A DNA stretch of 64,000 nt, from NCBI GenBank assembly GCA_027491315.1, contig JAIXWL010000012.1, positions 62,001 through 126,000 of the forward strand, given 5' to 3'. Positions within the stretch are counted from its first letter, which is position 1. The number at the start of each line of letters is the position of its first letter. This DNA comes from Cytophagaceae bacterium. Its GTDB lineage: Bacteria > Bacteroidota > Bacteroidia > Cytophagales > Spirosomataceae. The notes under the pieces are model-generated. The model saw only the letters and a list, made by a program, of their open reading frames with translations. It was not told the DNA's origin and ran no database searches. The translations under genes and the position numbers were made by a program. Positions 5,868-49,976 of the stretch are shown here, piece by piece.

Positions 5868-6395
5868 ATGGCTCATGCATATTCCATTCAAGATCCCCAA
5901 GGGCAATATTTTATCACTTGCACTGTCCATCAATGGGTTGACATTTTTACGAGGAAAATATATATCGATATCTTATTGGATAGTTTACGTTATTGTCAAC
6001 AAAAGAAAGGTCTAAAAATTCATGCTTGGGTAGTCATGAGCAATCATATCCATCTGATTGTCAGCAGTGAATCCGAATATCTTTCCAACATCATCCGAGA
6101 TTTCAAAAAATTTACTTCAACACAAATTTTTGAAGCTATAAAATCAAACACTAAAGAAAGCAGAAAAAAATGGCTACTATGGTTATTTACAAAAGATAAT
6201 CAAATCTGGTTTTGGCAGGCAGGTTATCATGGTAAACAAATTCTTACTCCATCTTTCTTTGAAAATAAATTAGATTACATCCATTTAAATCCTGTTCGAG
6301 CGGGATTTGTAGAAAAAGAAGAAGAATATGTGTATAGCAGTTGTGGGGATTATTATGGGACTAGAAAAGGTTTATTAAAGCTTGATTTAGAGTAA
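5868..6395 (+). CDS. REP-associated tyrosine transposase (RAYT, Y1 HUH family)
   Basis: 175 residues of the IS200-like Y1 transposase fold. The HUH metal motif is visible as H60-I-H62 in SNHIHLIVSS, and the likely catalytic tyrosine is Y137 in NKLDYIHLNPVRAGFV, a RAYT-type signature. RAYTs are single-copy, domesticated relatives of IS200 transposases that cut and join single-stranded REP palindromes. The gene is bracketed by REP-like hairpin pairs in inverted orientation, as expected for its substrate. A possible -7 box (TAGTTTTG) lies at 5821-5828. The ORF is intact and both motifs are kept, so it is probably active. No terminal inverted repeats of a classical IS were seen. Confidence 0.88.
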   Translation: MAHAYSIQDPQGQYFITCTVHQWVDIFTRKIYIDILLDSLRYCQQKKGLKIHAWVVMSNHIHLIVSSESEYLSNIIRDFKKFTSTQIFEAIKSNTKESRKKWLLWLFTKDNQIWFWQAGYHGKQILTPSFFENKLDYIHLNPVRAGFVEKEEEYVYSSCGDYYGTRKGLLKLDLE

Positions 6396-6406
6396 TTGTT
6401 TTAGGT

Positions 6407-6463
6407 GGGATTACAAATCCCTTTTATCTATCGTTCGACATGACCCTTCGGAACATGTCGAAC
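6407..6463 (+). repeat. REP-like hairpin pair (direct copy 1)
   Basis: Hairpin 1 is GGGATTACAAATCCC at 6407-6421. Hairpin 2 has arms GTTCGACATG / CATGTCGAAC at 6433-6463 around an 11-nt loop (acccttcggaa). Spacing between hairpin starts is 26 nt. It begins 12 bp after the RAYT stop codon. Confidence 0.88.
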
Positions 6464-6479
6464 AGCGTTTGTTTTTTAA

Positions 6480-6504
6480 GTTGGCTGAGGCTCTCGAAGC
6501 CAAC
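6480..6504 (+). repeat. Third hairpin module (H3), copy 1
   Basis: Inverted arms GTTGGCT / AGCCAAC enclose 11 nt. The same module recurs four times between 7386 and 7803. A linker carrying a half-site ACATGTCGAAC follows it before the next hairpin pair. Confidence 0.8.
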
Positions 6505-6555
6505 GTTTATACATGTCGAACAAAGTTTCTCGAGGCCAAATTTGATTTTTAACAC

Positions 6556-6612
6556 GGGATTACAAATCCCTTTTATCTGTCGTTCGACATGACCCTGCGG
6601 AACATGTCGAAC
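6556..6612 (+). repeat. REP-like hairpin pair (direct copy 2)
   Basis: GGGATTACAAATCCC at 6556-6570 and arms GTTCGACATG / CATGTCGAAC at 6582-6612 with loop accctgcggaa. The offset is again 26 nt. A degenerate end of the H3 module (ctcgaagccaa) follows, after which the repeats stop until 7386. The stretch 6396-6758 holds only these repeats and the parDE promoter region. Confidence 0.88.
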
Positions 6613-6719
6613 AGCGTTTCTCGAAGCCAATGTTTATGCTAGAAAGCTGTCCCCATCACTAAACCACTACCCATTAGGCATAATTTTAATAATACGGCAG
6701 AAAAATCAAGATTGTTTAT

Positions 6720-6734
6720 TACCAATTTTTGGTA
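6720..6734. promoter_or_regulatory. Candidate ParD operator upstream of parDE
   Basis: An inverted repeat TACCAA-TTT-TTGGTA lies 25 bp before the antitoxin start and overlaps a promoter-like TACATTTA at 6733-6740. ParD-type antitoxins bind palindromes over their own promoter, so this is the likely autoregulatory site. The assignment is inferred from position and symmetry only. Confidence 0.5.
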
Positions 6735-6758
6735 CATTTACAAAAAAATATCAAGATT

Positions 6759-7010
6759 ATGAGAAGAAATACATCGGTAGCTCTCGGGAGTTATTTTGAA
6801 GACTTTGTTGAAAATAGGATTGCAGAAGGACGATTCAAAAACGCCAGTGAAGTAATCAGAGCTGGATTAAGACTGTTAGAAGAAGATGAAAATAGAATCA
6901 ATGCCCTGAAAACAGCCATCAAAGAAGGACTTGATAGTGGTATTTCGAAAGAATTCAACGCAAAGAAACACTTAGAATCATTGAAAGCCAATAAGCAAAA
7001 AAATGGCTAG
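6759..7010 (+). CDS. Type II antitoxin, ParD family
   Basis: 83 residues from the ATG at 6759; the longer ORF-track start adds ten residues absent from the usual ParD N-terminus. MRRNTSVALGSYFEDFVENR is the beta strand and first helix of the ribbon-helix-helix DNA-binding fold, followed by GRFKNASEVIRAGLRLLEEDE, a hallmark of ParD/CopG-like antitoxins. The C-terminal third is charged and probably disordered until bound to toxin. The stop overlaps the toxin start by 8 bp, giving translational coupling. The pair sits between two blocks of REP-like repeats, which suggests it came as accessory DNA. Confidence 0.9.
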   Translation: MRRNTSVALGSYFEDFVENRIAEGRFKNASEVIRAGLRLLEEDENRINALKTAIKEGLDSGISKEFNAKKHLESLKANKQKNG

Positions 7011-7302
7011 GTTTTTATTATCTAATAAAGCAGTTGACGACTTATCCAAAATTTGGTACTACACTTATGAAGTCTGGTCAGAGACTCAAGCTGACGAGTA
7101 TTTTCAACTATTGATTGATACATGCCAAGAAATCGCTAAGAATACAGCCATTGGAAAAAATTACGATGAAGTAGAAAAAAATATTCTCGGTTTCAGAGTC
7201 GGCAAGCATATAATCTTCTATCAGGACATTCAGCAAAAACAAATTTTGGTCGTAAGAATCTTACACGAACAAATGGACTTGAAAAACAGAATCGGAGAAT
7301 AA
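7003..7302 (+). CDS. Type II toxin, ParE/RelE superfamily
   Basis: 99 residues, typical for ParE. It begins with FLLSNKAVDDLSKIWYYTYEVWS, the alpha-helical hairpin of the fold, and ends with FRVGKHIIFYQDI...ILVVRILHEQMDL, the conserved strand and R-I-L-H-x-x-M-D motif. ParE proteins poison DNA gyrase, whereas RelE relatives cleave mRNA; pairing with a ParD antitoxin favours the ParE type. It is co-transcribed with the antitoxin through an 8-bp overlap. The ORF appears full length with no disrupting change. Confidence 0.9.
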   Translation: MARFLLSNKAVDDLSKIWYYTYEVWSETQADEYFQLLIDTCQEIAKNTAIGKNYDEVEKNILGFRVGKHIIFYQDIQQKQILVVRILHEQMDLKNRIGE

Positions 7303-7385
7303 AAAATGCATAACACATGTCAGCTGGCAATTGGTGGTATTATTCAATAATTAATTTTCAACATGGTATTTTAAAATATAAATAA

Positions 7386-7410
7386 GTTGGCTGAGGCTCC
7401 CGAAGCCAAC
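7386..7410 (+). repeat. Third hairpin module (H3), copy 2
   Basis: Arms GTTGGCT / AGCCAAC. It opens the downstream repeat array, about 80 bp after the toxin stop codon. A 51-nt linker with half-site ACATGTCGAAC leads to the next hairpin pair, as in copy 1. Confidence 0.8.
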
Positions 7411-7461
7411 GATTATACATGTCGAACAGCGTTTCTCGAAACCAAATTTGATTTTTAACAC

Positions 7462-7517
7462 GGGATTATAAATCCCTTTTATCTGTCGTTCGACATGCCC
7501 TGCGGAACATGTCGAAC
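7462..7517 (+). repeat. REP-like hairpin pair (direct copy 3)
   Basis: GGGATTATAAATCCC at 7462-7476 and arms GTTCGACATG / CATGTCGAAC at 7488-7517. The loop (ccctgcggaa) is one base shorter than in the other copies. The start offset is 26 nt. Confidence 0.88.
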
Positions 7518-7524
7518 AGCGTTT

Positions 7525-7549
7525 GTTGGCTGAGGCTCCCGAAGCCAAC
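7525..7549 (+). repeat. Third hairpin module (H3), copy 3
   Basis: Arms GTTGGCT / AGCCAAC around gaggctcccga. The following linker is 35 bp shorter than in the other units, so hairpin 1 comes 41 nt instead of 76 nt after the start of H3. Confidence 0.8.
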
Positions 7550-7565
7550 TTTTTATTCTTATGAT

Positions 7566-7622
7566 GGGATTACAAATCCCTTTCATCTGTCGTTCGACAT
7601 GACCCTTCGGAACATGTCGAAC
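7566..7622 (+). repeat. REP-like hairpin pair (direct copy 4)
   Basis: GGGATTACAAATCCC at 7566-7580 and arms GTTCGACATG / CATGTCGAAC at 7592-7622 with loop acccttcggaa. The offset is 26 nt. Confidence 0.88.
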
Positions 7623-7638
7623 AGCTTTTGTTTTTTAA

Positions 7639-7663
7639 GTTGGCTGAGGCTCTCGAAGCCAAC
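7639..7663 (+). repeat. Third hairpin module (H3), copy 4
   Basis: Arms GTTGGCT / AGCCAAC around gaggctctcga. Hairpin 1 follows 76 nt after its start, the common spacing. Confidence 0.8.
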
Positions 7664-7714
7664 GTTTATACATGTCGAAAAACGTTTCTCGAGGCCAAAT
7701 TTGATTTTTAACAC

Positions 7715-7771
7715 GGGATTACAAATCCCTTTCATCTACCGTTCGACATGACCCTCCGGAACATGTCGAAC
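7715..7771 (+). repeat. REP-like hairpin pair (direct copy 5)
   Basis: GGGATTACAAATCCC at 7715-7729 and arms GTTCGACATG / CATGTCGAAC at 7741-7771 with loop accctccggaa. The offset is 26 nt. Confidence 0.88.
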
Positions 7772-7778
7772 AGCGTTT

Positions 7779-7839
7779 GTTGGCTGAGGCTCTCGAAGCC
7801 AACGATTATACAGGTCGAACAGCGTTTCTCAAAGCCAAC
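7779..7839 (+). repeat. H3 copy 5 and degenerate array end
   Basis: Arms GTTGGCT / AGCCAAC at 7779-7803 are followed by a half-site with one change (acaggtcgaac) and a final AGCCAAC ending at 7839. The array therefore stops about 10 bp from the stop codon of the convergent porin gene. Nothing else occupies 7303-7843. Confidence 0.75.
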
Positions 7840-11392: not shown

Positions 11393-12577
11393 CTAATACA
11401 AAAATTCAGAAAAATATTGTCCCGGAGATACTCCTTTAATTTTCTTAACCGCCGAATTAAAACTTTGTCGGGTTCCAAAGCCAGATTCCAAGGCCACAAT
11501 TTCCAACTTATAATTTTTCCATTTAGGATTCTCCCGACATTGTTCTTCGGCATATTGAATTCGCCAAGTATTGACATAATCAGTGAATGACAAATTCATA
11601 ACTGTTTGTAAAGCAATACGAATCATACGGGGCTTAACTTTTAACTTCTTAGCCACCTCATTCAAAGTTAAATTAGGGTTTAGAAAAATACGCTCAGTTT
11701 CAAAATATCGATTCAAGCTATCTGAAAGTGCTTTTTCTCGATCATTTTCAGAAATAATTTTAATGCTATGGTCTTTTGGAAGGGTAAATACATCCGAACC
11801 GTCCATCCTAGTATTGGCTTGTTGCCAAATTAAACCTCTCAAGCTTGGCCCATGTAGCAATCTAGGATTAAACAGCATAAACAGCATCATCAGCACATAT
11901 TCCACTAAGTAGAAGAAATCTTTCCAAGGTAAATAAATTCGATTCTCTTCAGGATAAATAAAATTATACACAATTAAACCCACAACCACGAATTTTAAAA
12001 ACATATTGAAAAACAACCAATAGACAATCAAAAGATTATTTTTAATGAAGGTTTTCGAAGCGGATAGATAATATTTTATTAATTCATAAAGGCCCCAACA
12101 GCTATAAAAAATAAACAAAAAGAAACGCACATATAAATGATTTTTCATGGTAATCCAGCCATACTTCGAATGGATAGTATAAAACGTATTTTCTGAAATC
12201 ATTTCCTTTATTTCAAGAATCTTAAGTTCTGCCGGCAAAATATAAAAAGGGATATATTCTATGACATGAAGGGCAAAAGGTAAAAAATGTAAGAAATGAA
12301 TGGGCTTAACTTTTCTCTCTGGATAAAGTAAAAATTGTTGAAATAAAAAATATAAAGGCCCCATGGTGAGTATCAAAGGTGATACCGTCCTGAAAAAATG
12401 GGGATTTTCATATATATATTCTGGTCGTATATAATATCCCGCAAAGGTCTGATAGCCAAGGCCAATAAACAATAAACCTAAAAACTTAGTAGCAACAATG
12501 CCTTTTTTAAAGAAAAAAGAGCCTCCAAAGGCAAAAAAAACAAAGCACAGATAAAACAGGTAATCTATAGGTGCCAT
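11393..12577 (-). CDS. Membrane-anchored AraC family regulator (paralog 1)
   Basis: 394 residues. The first 240 hold about six to seven hydrophobic segments (MAPIDYLFYLCFVFFAFGGSF onward). The C-terminal 110 residues are an AraC/XylS DNA-binding domain with two helix-turn-helices (LTLNEVAKKLKVKPRMIRIAL and LEIVALESGFGTRQSFNSAVKKIKGVSPGQYF). In Bacteroidota such membrane-AraC fusions act as one-component sensors; the ligand is unknown. It lies 57 bp downstream of a paralog of the same size and orientation, with the strongest similarity in the DNA-binding domain, so the pair arose by tandem duplication and may recognise similar sites. Confidence 0.9.
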   Translation of the reverse strand: MAPIDYLFYLCFVFFAFGGSFFFKKGIVATKFLGLLFIGLGYQTFAGYYIRPEYIYENPHFFRTVSPLILTMGPLYFLFQQFLLYPERKVKPIHFLHFLPFALHVIEYIPFYILPAELKILEIKEMISENTFYTIHSKYGWITMKNHLYVRFFLFIFYSCWGLYELIKYYLSASKTFIKNNLLIVYWLFFNMFLKFVVVGLIVYNFIYPEENRIYLPWKDFFYLVEYVLMMLFMLFNPRLLHGPSLRGLIWQQANTRMDGSDVFTLPKDHSIKIISENDREKALSDSLNRYFETERIFLNPNLTLNEVAKKLKVKPRMIRIALQTVMNLSFTDYVNTWRIQYAEEQCRENPKWKNYKLEIVALESGFGTRQSFNSAVKKIKGVSPGQYFSEFLY

Positions 12578-12634
12578 GAATGTATAGGTTTTATAAGTAA
12601 AACGTATTAAATGGAAAGAGGAAAAATAATGAAC

Positions 12635-13831
12635 CTATTTAGTAGAATCTTGGATGATGTTTTCAAAATATTTGCCTGGGGAGACCCCTTTAATTTTTTT
12701 CACGGCCGAATTAAAGCTTTGACGGGTTCCAAAGCCAGATTCCATGGCTATCACTTCTAGTTTATAATTTTTCCATTTCGGATTTTCTCGACACTGCTCC
12801 TCAGCAAACTGAATGCGCCAGGTATTGATGTAATCTGAAAAGGATAAATTCATTTCCATTTGAAGGGCCATGCGTATGATACGAGGCTTAATTTTCAAAG
12901 AGCGACTAACCTCTGCTAAGGTGATATCAGGACGGAGAAATAGCTGTTCCGTTTCAAAATAACGATTTAAGGTAAACATGACGGATTTATCCCTAGATGA
13001 TTTTTGATGAGCCTTTTCTTGCTTGAACAATTCGATGATCTCTTTGCCATTAAATCCCGCGAAATGTTGAAATACTAATCCTTTCAGTGTGGGTCCTTTT
13101 AATAACCTTGGATTAAATAACATAAAGACCATCATCGTGAAATATTCCAAAATGAAAATATAATCCATCCAAGTAAGCTCTAAATGCTTTTTCTGGGCAA
13201 AAATCAAATTGAAACAATGCAAAATGATGACAATAAATTTCATGATCATATCACCCGTTAACCAATAGACTATTAATGAATTTTTCCGAAGGAAGGATTT
13301 AGATGTCGTTTTATAAAATTTATACAATTCATAGAGCGTCCATAGTATGTAAGCCAAATAATAAATGGTTTTTATAAACAAATGGTCCCTCATGGAAATC
13401 CAGCCGTATTGGGACTCGGTATTATAAAAAGTATTTTGACTAAATACATGATTGACTTCCTCCAATTTTACCTCAGCAGGAAGTAAATAAAAGGGAATAT
13501 ATTCAACTATATGAAGAAAAAAAGGCAAAAAATGCAATAGAAAAATTAGCTTAAATTTTCGCTCAGGGTAAAGCAAAAAATGCTGAAAAAGGTAAGCCAA
13601 TGGGCCTAGTAAATAGAAAAACGGAGAAACTGTTCTGAAAAAATGGGGATAGTCATAAATGTGACTAGGTTGAATAAAATATCCCGCAAAAAGCTGATAG
13701 GCTAATCCAAGAAATTGAATACCCAAAAATTTTGTGGCAATGAGCCCCTTCTTGAAAAATAGGGATACACCAAATGCAAAAAATACAAAACTCAGGTAAA
13801 ACAAATAATCTACCGGTGACCAAAAATTCAT
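12635..13831 (-). CDS. Membrane-anchored AraC family regulator (paralog 2)
   Basis: 398 residues from the ATG at 13831; the track uses a TTG three codons earlier. The architecture equals that of the neighbour: a multi-spanning N-terminal region starting FWSPVDYLFYLSFVFFAFG and an AraC domain ending KVIA-like LEVIAMESGFGTRQSFNSAV. Long stretches around FRTVSPF, YPERKFK and HFLPF are shared with paralog 1, so the duplication covers the whole gene. The linker between the membrane and DNA-binding parts (about residues 260-300) is the least similar region. Targets and ligand are unknown. Confidence 0.9.
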   Translation of the reverse strand: MNFWSPVDYLFYLSFVFFAFGVSLFFKKGLIATKFLGIQFLGLAYQLFAGYFIQPSHIYDYPHFFRTVSPFFYLLGPLAYLFQHFLLYPERKFKLIFLLHFLPFFLHIVEYIPFYLLPAEVKLEEVNHVFSQNTFYNTESQYGWISMRDHLFIKTIYYLAYILWTLYELYKFYKTTSKSFLRKNSLIVYWLTGDMIMKFIVIILHCFNLIFAQKKHLELTWMDYIFILEYFTMMVFMLFNPRLLKGPTLKGLVFQHFAGFNGKEIIELFKQEKAHQKSSRDKSVMFTLNRYFETEQLFLRPDITLAEVSRSLKIKPRIIRMALQMEMNLSFSDYINTWRIQFAEEQCRENPKWKNYKLEVIAMESGFGTRQSFNSAVKKIKGVSPGKYFENIIQDSTK

Positions 13832-46566: not shown

Positions 46567-49422
46567 ATGAAAAAAACAATCCTCATTGCACTATTGTTTG
46601 TTACTGGAATCAGTGGCATTCAAGCTCAACAAAAATCAAAAACAAGTGGAGTTAGCCCAAAAACAAGTAACTCTGCGACAAAAACAAGTACATTAAGTAT
46701 TCCGGAAAAAATCACTTCTGCGGAGGGAATTACGGAGTATCGTTTAGGAAATGGTTTAAAAGTTTTATTATTTCCTGACCCATCCAAGCAAACCATTACG
46801 GTAAACATCACGTATTTAGTTGGTTCTCGCCATGAAGGCTATGGTGAAACAGGAATGTCTCACCTATTGGAACATATGGTGTTTAAAGGAACTAAAGAGA
46901 AACATAAAGATGTAGCCAAAGAGATTACTGATCATGGTGCTCAGTTTAATGGAACTACCTGGTTAGATCGTACAAATTACTTCGAGACATTTGCGGCTAC
47001 AGATGAAAACCTGGACTGGGCCTTGGATATGGAGGCAGACCGTATGATTAACTCAAGAATTGCTAAAAGTGAGTTAGAAACCGAAATGACTGTGGTTCGT
47101 AATGAGTTTGAAATGGGAGAAAATGACCCAAGCTCAGTATTAAGTGATCGAATTGTATCAACGGCTTTTTTATGGCATAATTATGGTAATTCAACCATTG
47201 GAGCACGATCAGATATTGAAAAAGTGCCAATTGAGAATTTACAAGCCTATTATAAGAAATATTACCAACCAGATAATGCGGTATTATTAGTGGCTGGTAA
47301 ATTTGATCCTGTTAAAACTTTGAATTTAATAAATCAAAAATTTGGTGTCATCCCTAAACCAGAAAGAGTTTTAACCAAAACATTCACGGCAGAACCAACT
47401 CAAGATGGAGAGCGTCATGTTACCCTTCGTCGAGTAGGAGATGTACAAGCTGTGGGTGTTGCTTACCATATTCCCTCTGGCTTACATCCTGATTACATTG
47501 CTTGCGATGTCTTTGCCGACTTATTAACTGATGCGCCATCAGGCCGATTGTACAAGGCATTGATCGATACGAAAAAGGCTGCTTCTCAATATGGTTATAG
47601 CTTCCAATTAAAAGAACCTGGTTTGGTGTATTTTGGGGCTGAAGTACCGAAGGAAAAATCAGCTGATTCTGTTCGTAATATCATTTTAGAGACTATTGAG
47701 CAATTTGCCAAAACTCCTCCTACCCAAGCAGATGTGGATCGAATCAAGATGAAAAACATCAAAAACGTAGAGTTATTATTAAATAATGCGCAGCGTGTCG
47801 GTGTAGGTTTATCGGAATACATCGCCCAAGGTGATTGGCGTTTATTATTTCACACGAGAAACTTAATTGAAAAAGTTACTGCAGAAGATGTTCAGCGAGT
47901 AGCACAAAAATACTTTAAGGCATCTAATCGTACTTCAGGAATCTTCTATCCAACAGAAAAGCCCGATCGTGCTGAAATCCCTGAGGCAAAAGAAGCTGAG
48001 GAAATACTTAAAGATTTCAAAGGAAGAGCAGCCGTTGCTGAAGGTGAGGCATTTGATCCATCTCCAAGCAATATTGATTCAAGAACTAAAAAAGAGACGA
48101 TTGGATCTGTTAAGGTGGCATTATTGGCTAAGAAAACGAGAGGTAGCTCCGTTTATGCTCGTATGACTTTGAGATTTGGTGATGAGAAATCACTTTTAGG
48201 AACTTCAACTGCTGCTGATTTAGCGGCTGATATGTTGACCAAGGGAACTGCGAAACATACTCGTCAACAATTTCAAGATGAATTGGACAAATTAAAGGCA
48301 AGGGTTTCTATTAGTGGAAGTGCTACTCAAGCTAACGTATCCATTGAAACTACTCGTGAAAATTTAGTTCCTGCACTTAAATTAGTAGCTGAAGCATTAA
48401 AAACCCCAGTCTTCCCAGCAGAAGAATTTGAGAAATTAAAACAAGAAAATTTAACTCAAATAGATGCTCAAAAAAGTGATCCACAAGCCAAAGCTATTGA
48501 GGCTTTAAATCAAGTTAGAACAGGACATTACGCGAAAAATGATGTTCGTTACAGCCCAACCTTAGCTGAACAAACGGCTCTTTATAGCGCTGCCAAATTA
48601 GAAGATGCCGTATCGTTCTATAAAAACTTTTACGGAGCTAGTTCAGCTACATTTTCAGCAGTAGGAGATTTTGATGAAAACGAAGTAAAAGAACTCATTA
48701 AAACAGAATTTTCTAATTGGAAATCACCTAAACCTTACACTAGAATTCCTGAAATTGTAGCAGATGTAAAACCGGTGATTAAATCCATTGAAACTCCAGA
48801 TAAAGCGAATGCCTTTTTCGTGGCTTATCAACCTTTAAAAATTTCAGATACAGACCCAGATTATGCGGCAATGGAAATCAGTAATTACATTTTGGGAGGA
48901 AGTCCAGGATTAGCCAATCGTTTAATGGGAAGAATTCGTCAAAAGGAAGGATTATCCTATGGTGTGGGTTCTCAGTTTAGTGCCCATCCGATAGACAAAG
49001 CTGGTAGTTTCCTGACTTATGCCATTTATGCTCCTGAGAATTTAGCCAAATTAGAAGCTGCATTTAAAGAGGAGATTGAAAAAGTATTAAAAGACGGATA
49101 CACAGAAAAGGAAATTGAGGAAGCAAAAAAATCTTGGCTACAGGCTAGACAAGTGGCTCGTTCTCAAGACAATTCTCTAAGTGGTACATTGAACAGCAAT
49201 TTATATTTAAATCGTAGTTTGAAATTCTCGGAGGAGTTGGATAAAAAAGTCAATGCTTTAACCTCTGACCAAATTTTACAAGCCACTCGTAAGACTTTGG
49301 ATTTGCTTAAAATGTCTTTAATCAAAGCGGGAGATTACGAAGGGGCAGCCAAGAAAAAAGCTGCCAAAGCTGAAAATGCACCTAACAACACTGGTGCAGT
49401 AGGCGGCGCTCCTAAGCCCTAG
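46567..49422 (+). CDS. Secreted M16 family metallopeptidase (two-domain)
   Basis: 951 residues with a signal peptide (MKKTILIALLFVTGISGIQAQ). The N-terminal half has the zinc motif H-x-x-E-H in MSHLLEHMVFKGTKEKH and the downstream glutamate in ETEMTVVRNEFEMGEND. The C-terminal half (about 500-930) repeats the M16 fold without the motif, and QKEGLSYGVGSQFSAHP is the conserved R/Y segment of the C domain. Such pitrilysin-like periplasmic enzymes degrade peptides in a closed chamber. The 3' end runs into the hairpin cluster at 49.44 kb. Confidence 0.92.
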   Translation: MKKTILIALLFVTGISGIQAQQKSKTSGVSPKTSNSATKTSTLSIPEKITSAEGITEYRLGNGLKVLLFPDPSKQTITVNITYLVGSRHEGYGETGMSHLLEHMVFKGTKEKHKDVAKEITDHGAQFNGTTWLDRTNYFETFAATDENLDWALDMEADRMINSRIAKSELETEMTVVRNEFEMGENDPSSVLSDRIVSTAFLWHNYGNSTIGARSDIEKVPIENLQAYYKKYYQPDNAVLLVAGKFDPVKTLNLINQKFGVIPKPERVLTKTFTAEPTQDGERHVTLRRVGDVQAVGVAYHIPSGLHPDYIACDVFADLLTDAPSGRLYKALIDTKKAASQYGYSFQLKEPGLVYFGAEVPKEKSADSVRNIILETIEQFAKTPPTQADVDRIKMKNIKNVELLLNNAQRVGVGLSEYIAQGDWRLLFHTRNLIEKVTAEDVQRVAQKYFKASNRTSGIFYPTEKPDRAEIPEAKEAEEILKDFKGRAAVAEGEAFDPSPSNIDSRTKKETIGSVKVALLAKKTRGSSVYARMTLRFGDEKSLLGTSTAADLAADMLTKGTAKHTRQQFQDELDKLKARVSISGSATQANVSIETTRENLVPALKLVAEALKTPVFPAEEFEKLKQENLTQIDAQKSDPQAKAIEALNQVRTGHYAKNDVRYSPTLAEQTALYSAAKLEDAVSFYKNFYGASSATFSAVGDFDENEVKELIKTEFSNWKSPKPYTRIPEIVADVKPVIKSIETPDKANAFFVAYQPLKISDTDPDYAAMEISNYILGGSPGLANRLMGRIRQKEGLSYGVGSQFSAHPIDKAGSFLTYAIYAPENLAKLEAAFKEEIEKVLKDGYTEKEIEEAKKSWLQARQVARSQDNSLSGTLNSNLYLNRSLKFSEELDKKVNALTSDQILQATRKTLDLLKMSLIKAGDYEGAAKKKAAKAENAPNNTGAVGGAPKP

Positions 49423-49436
49423 CAGGCCCAGTCCCA

Positions 49437-49549
49437 TAGCCCTAGCACTGCTAGGGCTATAAAAAAGCTCAAGCAGTGCTTGAGCTCTAAAAAAAAAGCC
49501 CTAGCACTGCTAGGGCTATAAAAAGAAAGCTCAAGCAATGCTTGAGCTC
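49437..49549. terminator. Cluster of four alternating bidirectional terminator hairpins
   Basis: Hairpins at 49438-49458 and 49497-49517 share arms AGCCCTAGCA / TGCTAGGGCT; those at 49466-49486 and 49528-49548 share arms AGCTCAAGCA / TGCTTGAGCT. They alternate, with A-runs (AAAAAA to AAAAAAAAA) between. The unit is about 60 bp long and is present twice. It lies between the convergent M16 gene and suf operon and can terminate both. Confidence 0.85.
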
Positions 49550-49562
49550 TAAAAAAAAAGTC

Positions 49563-49976
49563 CTAGCAGAACTCCTCAAAAACACCTTCTAAGTGCGCTG
49601 AAATCAATTCAGCAGAACGACCTTCAATGTGATGACGCTCCACAAAGTGAACCAATTCACCATCTTTGAATAAGGCGATTGAAGGAGAAGATGGAGGATA
49701 TGGCAAAGTATATTCTCTTGCTTTCTGTGTAGCTTCTTGATCTACCCCAGCAAAAACAGTTACTAATGTATCTGGTTTTTTACTAGATGCTGCTACTGCC
49801 TCTTTTACACCTGGACGAGCGGTACGAGCAGAACAACCGCAAACCGAATTAATAAACAATAAGGTTGTACCTGGTTTAGCCAATACTTCTTCTACTTCAG
49901 AGGCTTGCTTCAACTCTTGAAATCCACCTTCTACGATATCCATCCTCATAGGATGTACTAAATGTTCTGGATACAT
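49563..49976 (-). CDS. BrxA/BrxB family bacilliredoxin
   Basis: 137 residues. NSVCGCSARTARPGV carries the C-G-C active site of the YphP/YqiW family, in a thioredoxin-like fold (TLLFINSVCG... TLVTVFAGVDQEATQKAREY). Members remove bacillithiol from mixed disulfides. It is last in the suf operon, 34 bp after the DUF59 gene, which suggests a thiol-redox role during Fe-S assembly. The stop codon overlaps the edge of the terminator cluster. Confidence 0.9.
   Translation of the reverse strand: MYPEHLVHPMRMDIVEGGFQELKQASEVEEVLAKPGTTLLFINSVCGCSARTARPGVKEAVAASSKKPDTLVTVFAGVDQEATQKAREYTLPYPPSSPSIALFKDGELVHFVERHHIEGRSAELISAHLEGVFEEFC

Follow-up and report, generated by a model that had tools for sequence, protein, structure and literature searches.

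What does a row of closely similar hairpins do between two converging genes, and how can both arms of a stem change together? The spacer between an M16 peptidase gene and a bacilliredoxin-type gene raises both questions. The locus lies in a window of 64,000 nucleotides, the whole stretch of DNA analyzed here, from a freshwater bacterium placed by its relatives in the genus Aquirufa (genome of 2.92 Mb, 99.9% complete). The spacer between the converging genes is taken up by a hairpin array that lies directly after the stop codon of the bacilliredoxin-type gene (Table 1). The array probably consists of tandemly duplicated intrinsic (Rho-independent) terminators for the minus-strand bacilliredoxin/suf run, in which template-switch-like copying and selection would have maintained the pairing.

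Table 1. Features of the hairpin array and its neighboring genes (window coordinates).
Feature	Position	Strand	Remarks
M16 peptidase gene	46567..49422	+	PF00675, PF05193; convergent partner of bacilliredoxin-type gene
AGCCCTAGCA at M16 peptidase end	49415..49424	+	same sequence as hairpin arm
Partial third unit copy	49447-49425	-	after copy 2
Hairpin B1, AGCCCTAGCA/TGCTAGGGCT	49438..49458	-	11 bp when extended (49436-49460); U-tract on neither strand
Tandem unit copy 2, 59 bp	49448..49506	-	opens with TGCTAG of hairpin arm
Hairpin A1, AGCTCAAGCA/TGCTTGAGCT	49466..49486	-	U-tract 49461-49465 on minus; terminator score d=21
Hairpin B2	49497..49517	-	U-tract 49489-49496 on minus; terminator score d=52, highest in array
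Tandem unit copy 1, 62 bp	49507..49568	-	opening TGCTAG is bacilliredoxin Cys-stop
Hairpin A2	49528..49548	-	U-tract 49520-49527 on minus, one C within; terminator score d=15
Hybrid junction TGCTAGGACTTTTTTTTT	49551..49568	-	bacilliredoxin Cys-stop fused to hairpin 3' arm and T-tract
Bacilliredoxin-type gene	49563..49976	-	PF06491; last gene of suf-type run
suf-type run	continues to 53279	-	PF01883 protein, SufE, SufS-like aminotransferase, SufBD core

Structure of the Hairpin Array

Inspection of the sequence and a repeat finder place four hairpins within 111 bp (49438-49548), each a perfect 9-bp stem around a 3-nt loop; read along the plus strand, their order is B, A, B, A. The B arms (AGCCCTAGCA/TGCTAGGGCT) differ from the A arms (AGCTCAAGCA/TGCTTGAGCT) by two changes per side, located at partner positions so that pairing is kept. 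An earlier note on this DNA had described four alternating hairpins with compensatory changes, and that description is confirmed. Single stems have stabilities of -12.6 to -15.1 kcal/mol on both strands, and the folding z score is about -8.3 on the plus strand and -8.6 on the minus strand, with none of 200 shuffles folding equally well. When the array is folded as a whole, the units are nested in a single long stem at minimum energy, and single terminators that do not fold first could be weakened by this.

Neither exact nor near copies of the array hairpins are found elsewhere in the genome, ruling out a genome-wide repeat. Across 464 kb, comprising the window and a 400-kb sample of the remaining genome, three or more perfect hairpins (stems of at least 8 bp) cluster nowhere but in this array; genome-wide counts combine these stretches with whole-genome pattern or model searches. 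A known RNA family is also ruled out, as Rfam yields sub-threshold chance matches only and the array does not reach a gathering score.

Repeats of other kinds occur in this genome. Window positions 5868-7838 hold a Y1_Tnp (RAYT-like) ORF followed by the repeated palindromes GTTGGCTGAGGCTCTCGAAGCCAAC and TTCGACATGACCCTTCGGAACATGTCGAA, a REP/RAYT-like cluster in which two small ORFs between repeats resemble, by eye, a toxin-antitoxin pair. A second Y1_Tnp gene adjoins an array of palindromes AGCCATGGATTTTAATCCATGGCT at L174:1871-2409 (G000 contig 5). A dispersed family of 33-39-bp perfect hairpins, AACGCTGTCAAGGTTTCAAACCTTGACAGCGTT and its variants, is present at L149:1014, L151:5754, L153:18788 and 18948, L154:4409, L157:17005, and L174:3390. 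Two pairs of 199-234-bp direct repeats at window 11411-13818, ∼1250 bp apart and 71-78% identical, are possibly duplicated genes.

Strand of Predicted Termination

The hairpins have the G+C-rich stem of at least 5 bp, the short loop, and the gene-end position of intrinsic terminators, and in three of the four a T-tract follows on the minus strand. Terminator scores follow a d'Aubenton-Carafa-type formula in our own implementation and serve for comparing strands and species only. On the plus strand, no U-tract follows the stems, and the spacer and the 4 kb beyond it (through 53400) contain no score above 0. The proposal that the cluster insulates two convergent operons is thus supported by sequence for the bacilliredoxin/suf strand, where U-tracts and scores are present, and is not supported for the M16 strand, where nothing scores above 0 over the same range. 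Because U-tracts and scores are confined to the bacilliredoxin/suf strand, insulation is predicted to be one-way: suf transcripts would be kept out of the M16 gene, and M16 transcripts would have to be ended by other means.

Tandem Units and Gene Ends

Hairpins of like type are spaced 59 and 62 bp apart, and TRF reports a period of 62 bp with 2.2 copies and 93% matches, in agreement with the duplicated 60-bp unit of the earlier note. Cutting the minus strand at TGCTAG yields a 62-bp unit, a near-identical 59-bp unit, a partial unit, and then the M16 end. The M16 gene finishes with the codons AAG CCC TAG (stop at 49420-49422); the complement of this end (CTAGCA, in AAG CCC TAG CA) gives the last TGCTAG. 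The earlier note was right that a hairpin arm is copied at the M16 stop but placed it at 49414-49423, one nucleotide off; its location of CCTAGCA at the bacilliredoxin stop (49562-49568) was correct. At the opposite end of the array, the junction TGCTAGGACTTTTTTTTT differs by one change from a hairpin 3' arm with its T-tract, TGCTAGGGCTTTTTTTTT. The window's genome lacks at this junction the bidirectional terminator that three relatives (G020, G033, and G017) have there.

Relatives also connect the array to the M16 end. The M16 stop codon lies inside an arm of the last hairpin in G033 and G024, and G024 carries a CCG version in both its stems and its M16 end (CCG TAG), indicating that gene end and array changed together. 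In G018, the M16 gene ends AAG CCC TAA and the spacer holds a single ordinary terminator, so the M16 end probably predates the array. The idea that the array grew out of a gene end is therefore supported, both by units phased on the TGCTAG of the bacilliredoxin Cys-stop and of the M16 end complement and by the M16 stops within hairpin arms.

The Same Spacer in Related Species

The window's genome belongs to a six-species clade (support 100/100 in a gene-end tree) in which five species form a group (89/85) with G005 outside. The A. nivalisilvae branch is one of two branches of the genus (PMC9163014); G020 corresponds to A. nivalisilvae and G033 to A. ecclesiirivi, with spacers that are identical. 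The usual state in the genus is one A-tract/T-tract hairpin beside the bacilliredoxin stop. None of the 36 parsed spacers is without a terminator on the bacilliredoxin strand, and 34 score on both strands; an M16-strand terminator is missing in the window's genome and G024 only.

The window's genome and four sister species have species-specific arrays in place of, or beside, the bidirectional terminator. The extra hairpins are of one design, with one perfect and one imperfect copy each in G033 and G020, six units in G017, five in G024, and four in the window's genome, and several units have decayed in G017 and G020. Comparison of unit number among relatives thus reveals that sister species hold arrays of their own, differing in sequence and length. 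In G020, an A-type hairpin (GCCCAAGC) and then a decayed B type follow the bidirectional terminator. As this order matches that in the window's genome, the A-B pair appears to be ancestral, and its duplication as a whole would have followed in the window's genome.

Alignment of 19 units across species displays 90% of cells paired, changes on both sides in five of nine stem pairs, and a covariation score of 0.288 versus 0.137 in shuffles. Flips between T-A and A-T and between C-G and G-C appear in two stem pairs. Non-Watson-Crick cells read on the minus-strand RNA comprise 10 G.U and 2 A.C, the latter being G.U on the plus-strand RNA. Since the units have a common history, the covariation and G.U counts are not independent, and the G.U excess, which points to minus-strand RNA, is suggestive only. 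Because the stems stay paired although their letters vary from species to species, a protein-binding operator is ruled out.

Related Palindromes at Other Gene Ends

Searches with a degenerate pattern and with a covariance model built from the units detect palindromes with a GCANTGC apex in every one of the six clade species, at gene ends other than those of the array. The 21-mer pattern of this class is absent from the 32 other genus members, and among 292 genomes from the order, matches outside the clade are scattered, one or two per genome, and mostly imperfect palindromes. The window's genome has ∼3 loci of the type; the array stems themselves occur at one. Some relatives carry tandem arrays: 6 × 49 bp after a porin gene and ∼4 × 49 bp between FtsY and GlnRS in G017, the latter with the GlnRS gene end inside the repeated unit, and 3 × 69 bp in G005.

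The FtsY/GlnRS locus provides the state before insertion. In all 23 parsed outgroup species the two stops abut (TAATTA, TAGTTA) and no hairpin is present. In the window's genome (L181, contig 8 near 19555), a 45-bp palindrome lies exactly between the stops, with 27-bp perfect arms that include both of them; G020 has 22-bp arms of different sequence. Long perfect arms that are unlike between sister species fit template switching. At the DUF3127/Pirin spacer, for which few loci were parsed, the sequence that follows differs in the two informative loci outside the clade. Palindromes of the same type lack a U-tract at L161, L162, and the FtsY/GlnRS locus of the window's genome, so termination cannot be the sole reason for the existence of the type.

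Loss of SbcD is ruled out as the cause of the clade restriction. The SbcD model TIGR00619 has no match in 38 genus genomes and matches 13 of 14 control genomes, although a diverged SbcD could be missed; absence throughout the genus may permit palindromes but cannot explain their restriction to one clade. A broader reading, offered tentatively and with some doubt, is that in the A. nivalisilvae branch, apparently SbcD-less like the whole genus, low-copy palindromes with a largely fixed GCANTGC apex arise at touching or close gene ends, extend their arms perfectly into the flanks, amplify in tandem, and renew their stems by one-step arm copying.

The main rival to duplicated terminators is that gene ends in the ancestor of the A. 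nivalisilvae branch acquired a small mobile palindrome, REP-like or MITE-like with a GCANTGC apex, which then formed tandem copies, with termination as a by-product. The clade-limited distribution of the 21-mer class and the precise FtsY/GlnRS insertion are what such an element would leave behind, Y1_Tnp (RAYT-type) transposase genes are present in five of the six clade species, and REP clusters are known next to the 3' ends of convergent genes (PMC3733652). However, copy number is very low, stem letters vary between loci, the array hairpins lack a GTAG or CGTC tag, and the palindromes beside the Y1_Tnp genes of the window's genome have different sequences. G005, moreover, has hairpins but no Y1_Tnp match. 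A REP/RAYT origin is rejected on the last two observations, and a mobile palindrome of any kind is, so weakened, rather unlikely.

Proposed Mechanism

The favored reading, duplicated terminators, suggests the following course. An A+B hairpin pair beside the M16 end would have been duplicated as a single unit. Deletion or unequal exchange at TGCTAG, which is common to the hairpin arms and both gene ends, may then have joined the duplicated pair directly to the bacilliredoxin stop and removed the older bidirectional terminator. Each hairpin is predicted to fold during transcription and, with its U-tract, to halt part of the polymerases that passed the preceding hairpin, so that three terminators in series would limit antisense transcription into the M16 gene. 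For paired changes that lack a G-U intermediate, the likeliest source is copying of one arm from the other by template switching; selection for termination would retain the paired copies. Sequence evidence has led to the proposal that template switching gives rise to hairpins and compensatory changes (PMC8794818). B1 has no U-tract and several units of G017 and G020 are decayed, so some copies cannot be working terminators.

Selection may instead have played no part. A functionless, neutral tandem duplication whose pairing is maintained solely by DNA-level palindrome correction would accommodate the wide range of copy number between sister species, the decay of some units, and the tolerated loss of the M16-strand terminator in two species. 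It does not account for the retention of a bacilliredoxin-strand terminator in every parsed spacer and is judged improbable. Still less credible is that the array acts mainly at the RNA 3' end, as protection from 3' exonucleases, or as DNA in the form of cruciforms. Stems that are stable on both strands and the position of B1, the U-tract-free hairpin nearest M16 and <20 bp from its stop, would suit such roles, whereas U-tracts and a G.U bias that are specific to one strand are not predicted by a role at the DNA level. An assembly artefact, which the earlier note had set beside a single ordinary hairpin in other strains, can be dismissed almost entirely: no point in its support was found, the assemblies of sister species show other arrays at this position, and the ∼130-bp array lies mid-contig in a nearly complete genome.

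Comparison with Known Systems

How both sides of an RNA stem come to change is a long-standing question. Here, several spacers in close relatives, some of them cultured, vary by species in hairpin number and letters with pairing near perfect, and outgroups display the state before the hairpin existed. The replacement of a bidirectional terminator by stacked one-way terminators is a testable case. If the reading of the GCANTGC palindromes is true, they would constitute a natural and repeatable case of compensatory evolution that skips intermediates.

The array resembles REP elements and RAYT-associated clusters in having 20-40-bp palindromes (21-25 bp in the array) clustered in tandem near the 3' ends of convergent genes. 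Unlike REP elements, it is not dispersed at high copy (one locus for the stems and about three for the type), its stem sequence is not conserved, TAG or TAT rather than GTAG or CGTC precedes the hairpins on the minus strand, and it does not lie beside Y1_Tnp genes, where the palindromes differ at both loci. Like the array, template-switch hairpins (Monttinen and Loytynoja 2022, PMC8794818) have perfect stems, and in both, compensatory changes at several bases seem to come jointly; those data concern rRNA genes and novel stems such as microRNAs, whereas the array combines bacterial intergenic spacers with tandem duplication.

The closest likeness is to intrinsic and tandem terminators, which share the G+C-rich stem, short loop, U-tract on the transcribed strand, and position just past a stop codon. 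The array differs from them in having four hairpins in series that go back to duplication of an A-B pair and keep phase with the stop codons of the two converging genes, in the turnover of sequence between sister species with pairing kept, and in the loss of an older bidirectional terminator. What would be new here is the building of a stack of probable intrinsic terminators by tandem duplication, with compensatory turnover of their stems.
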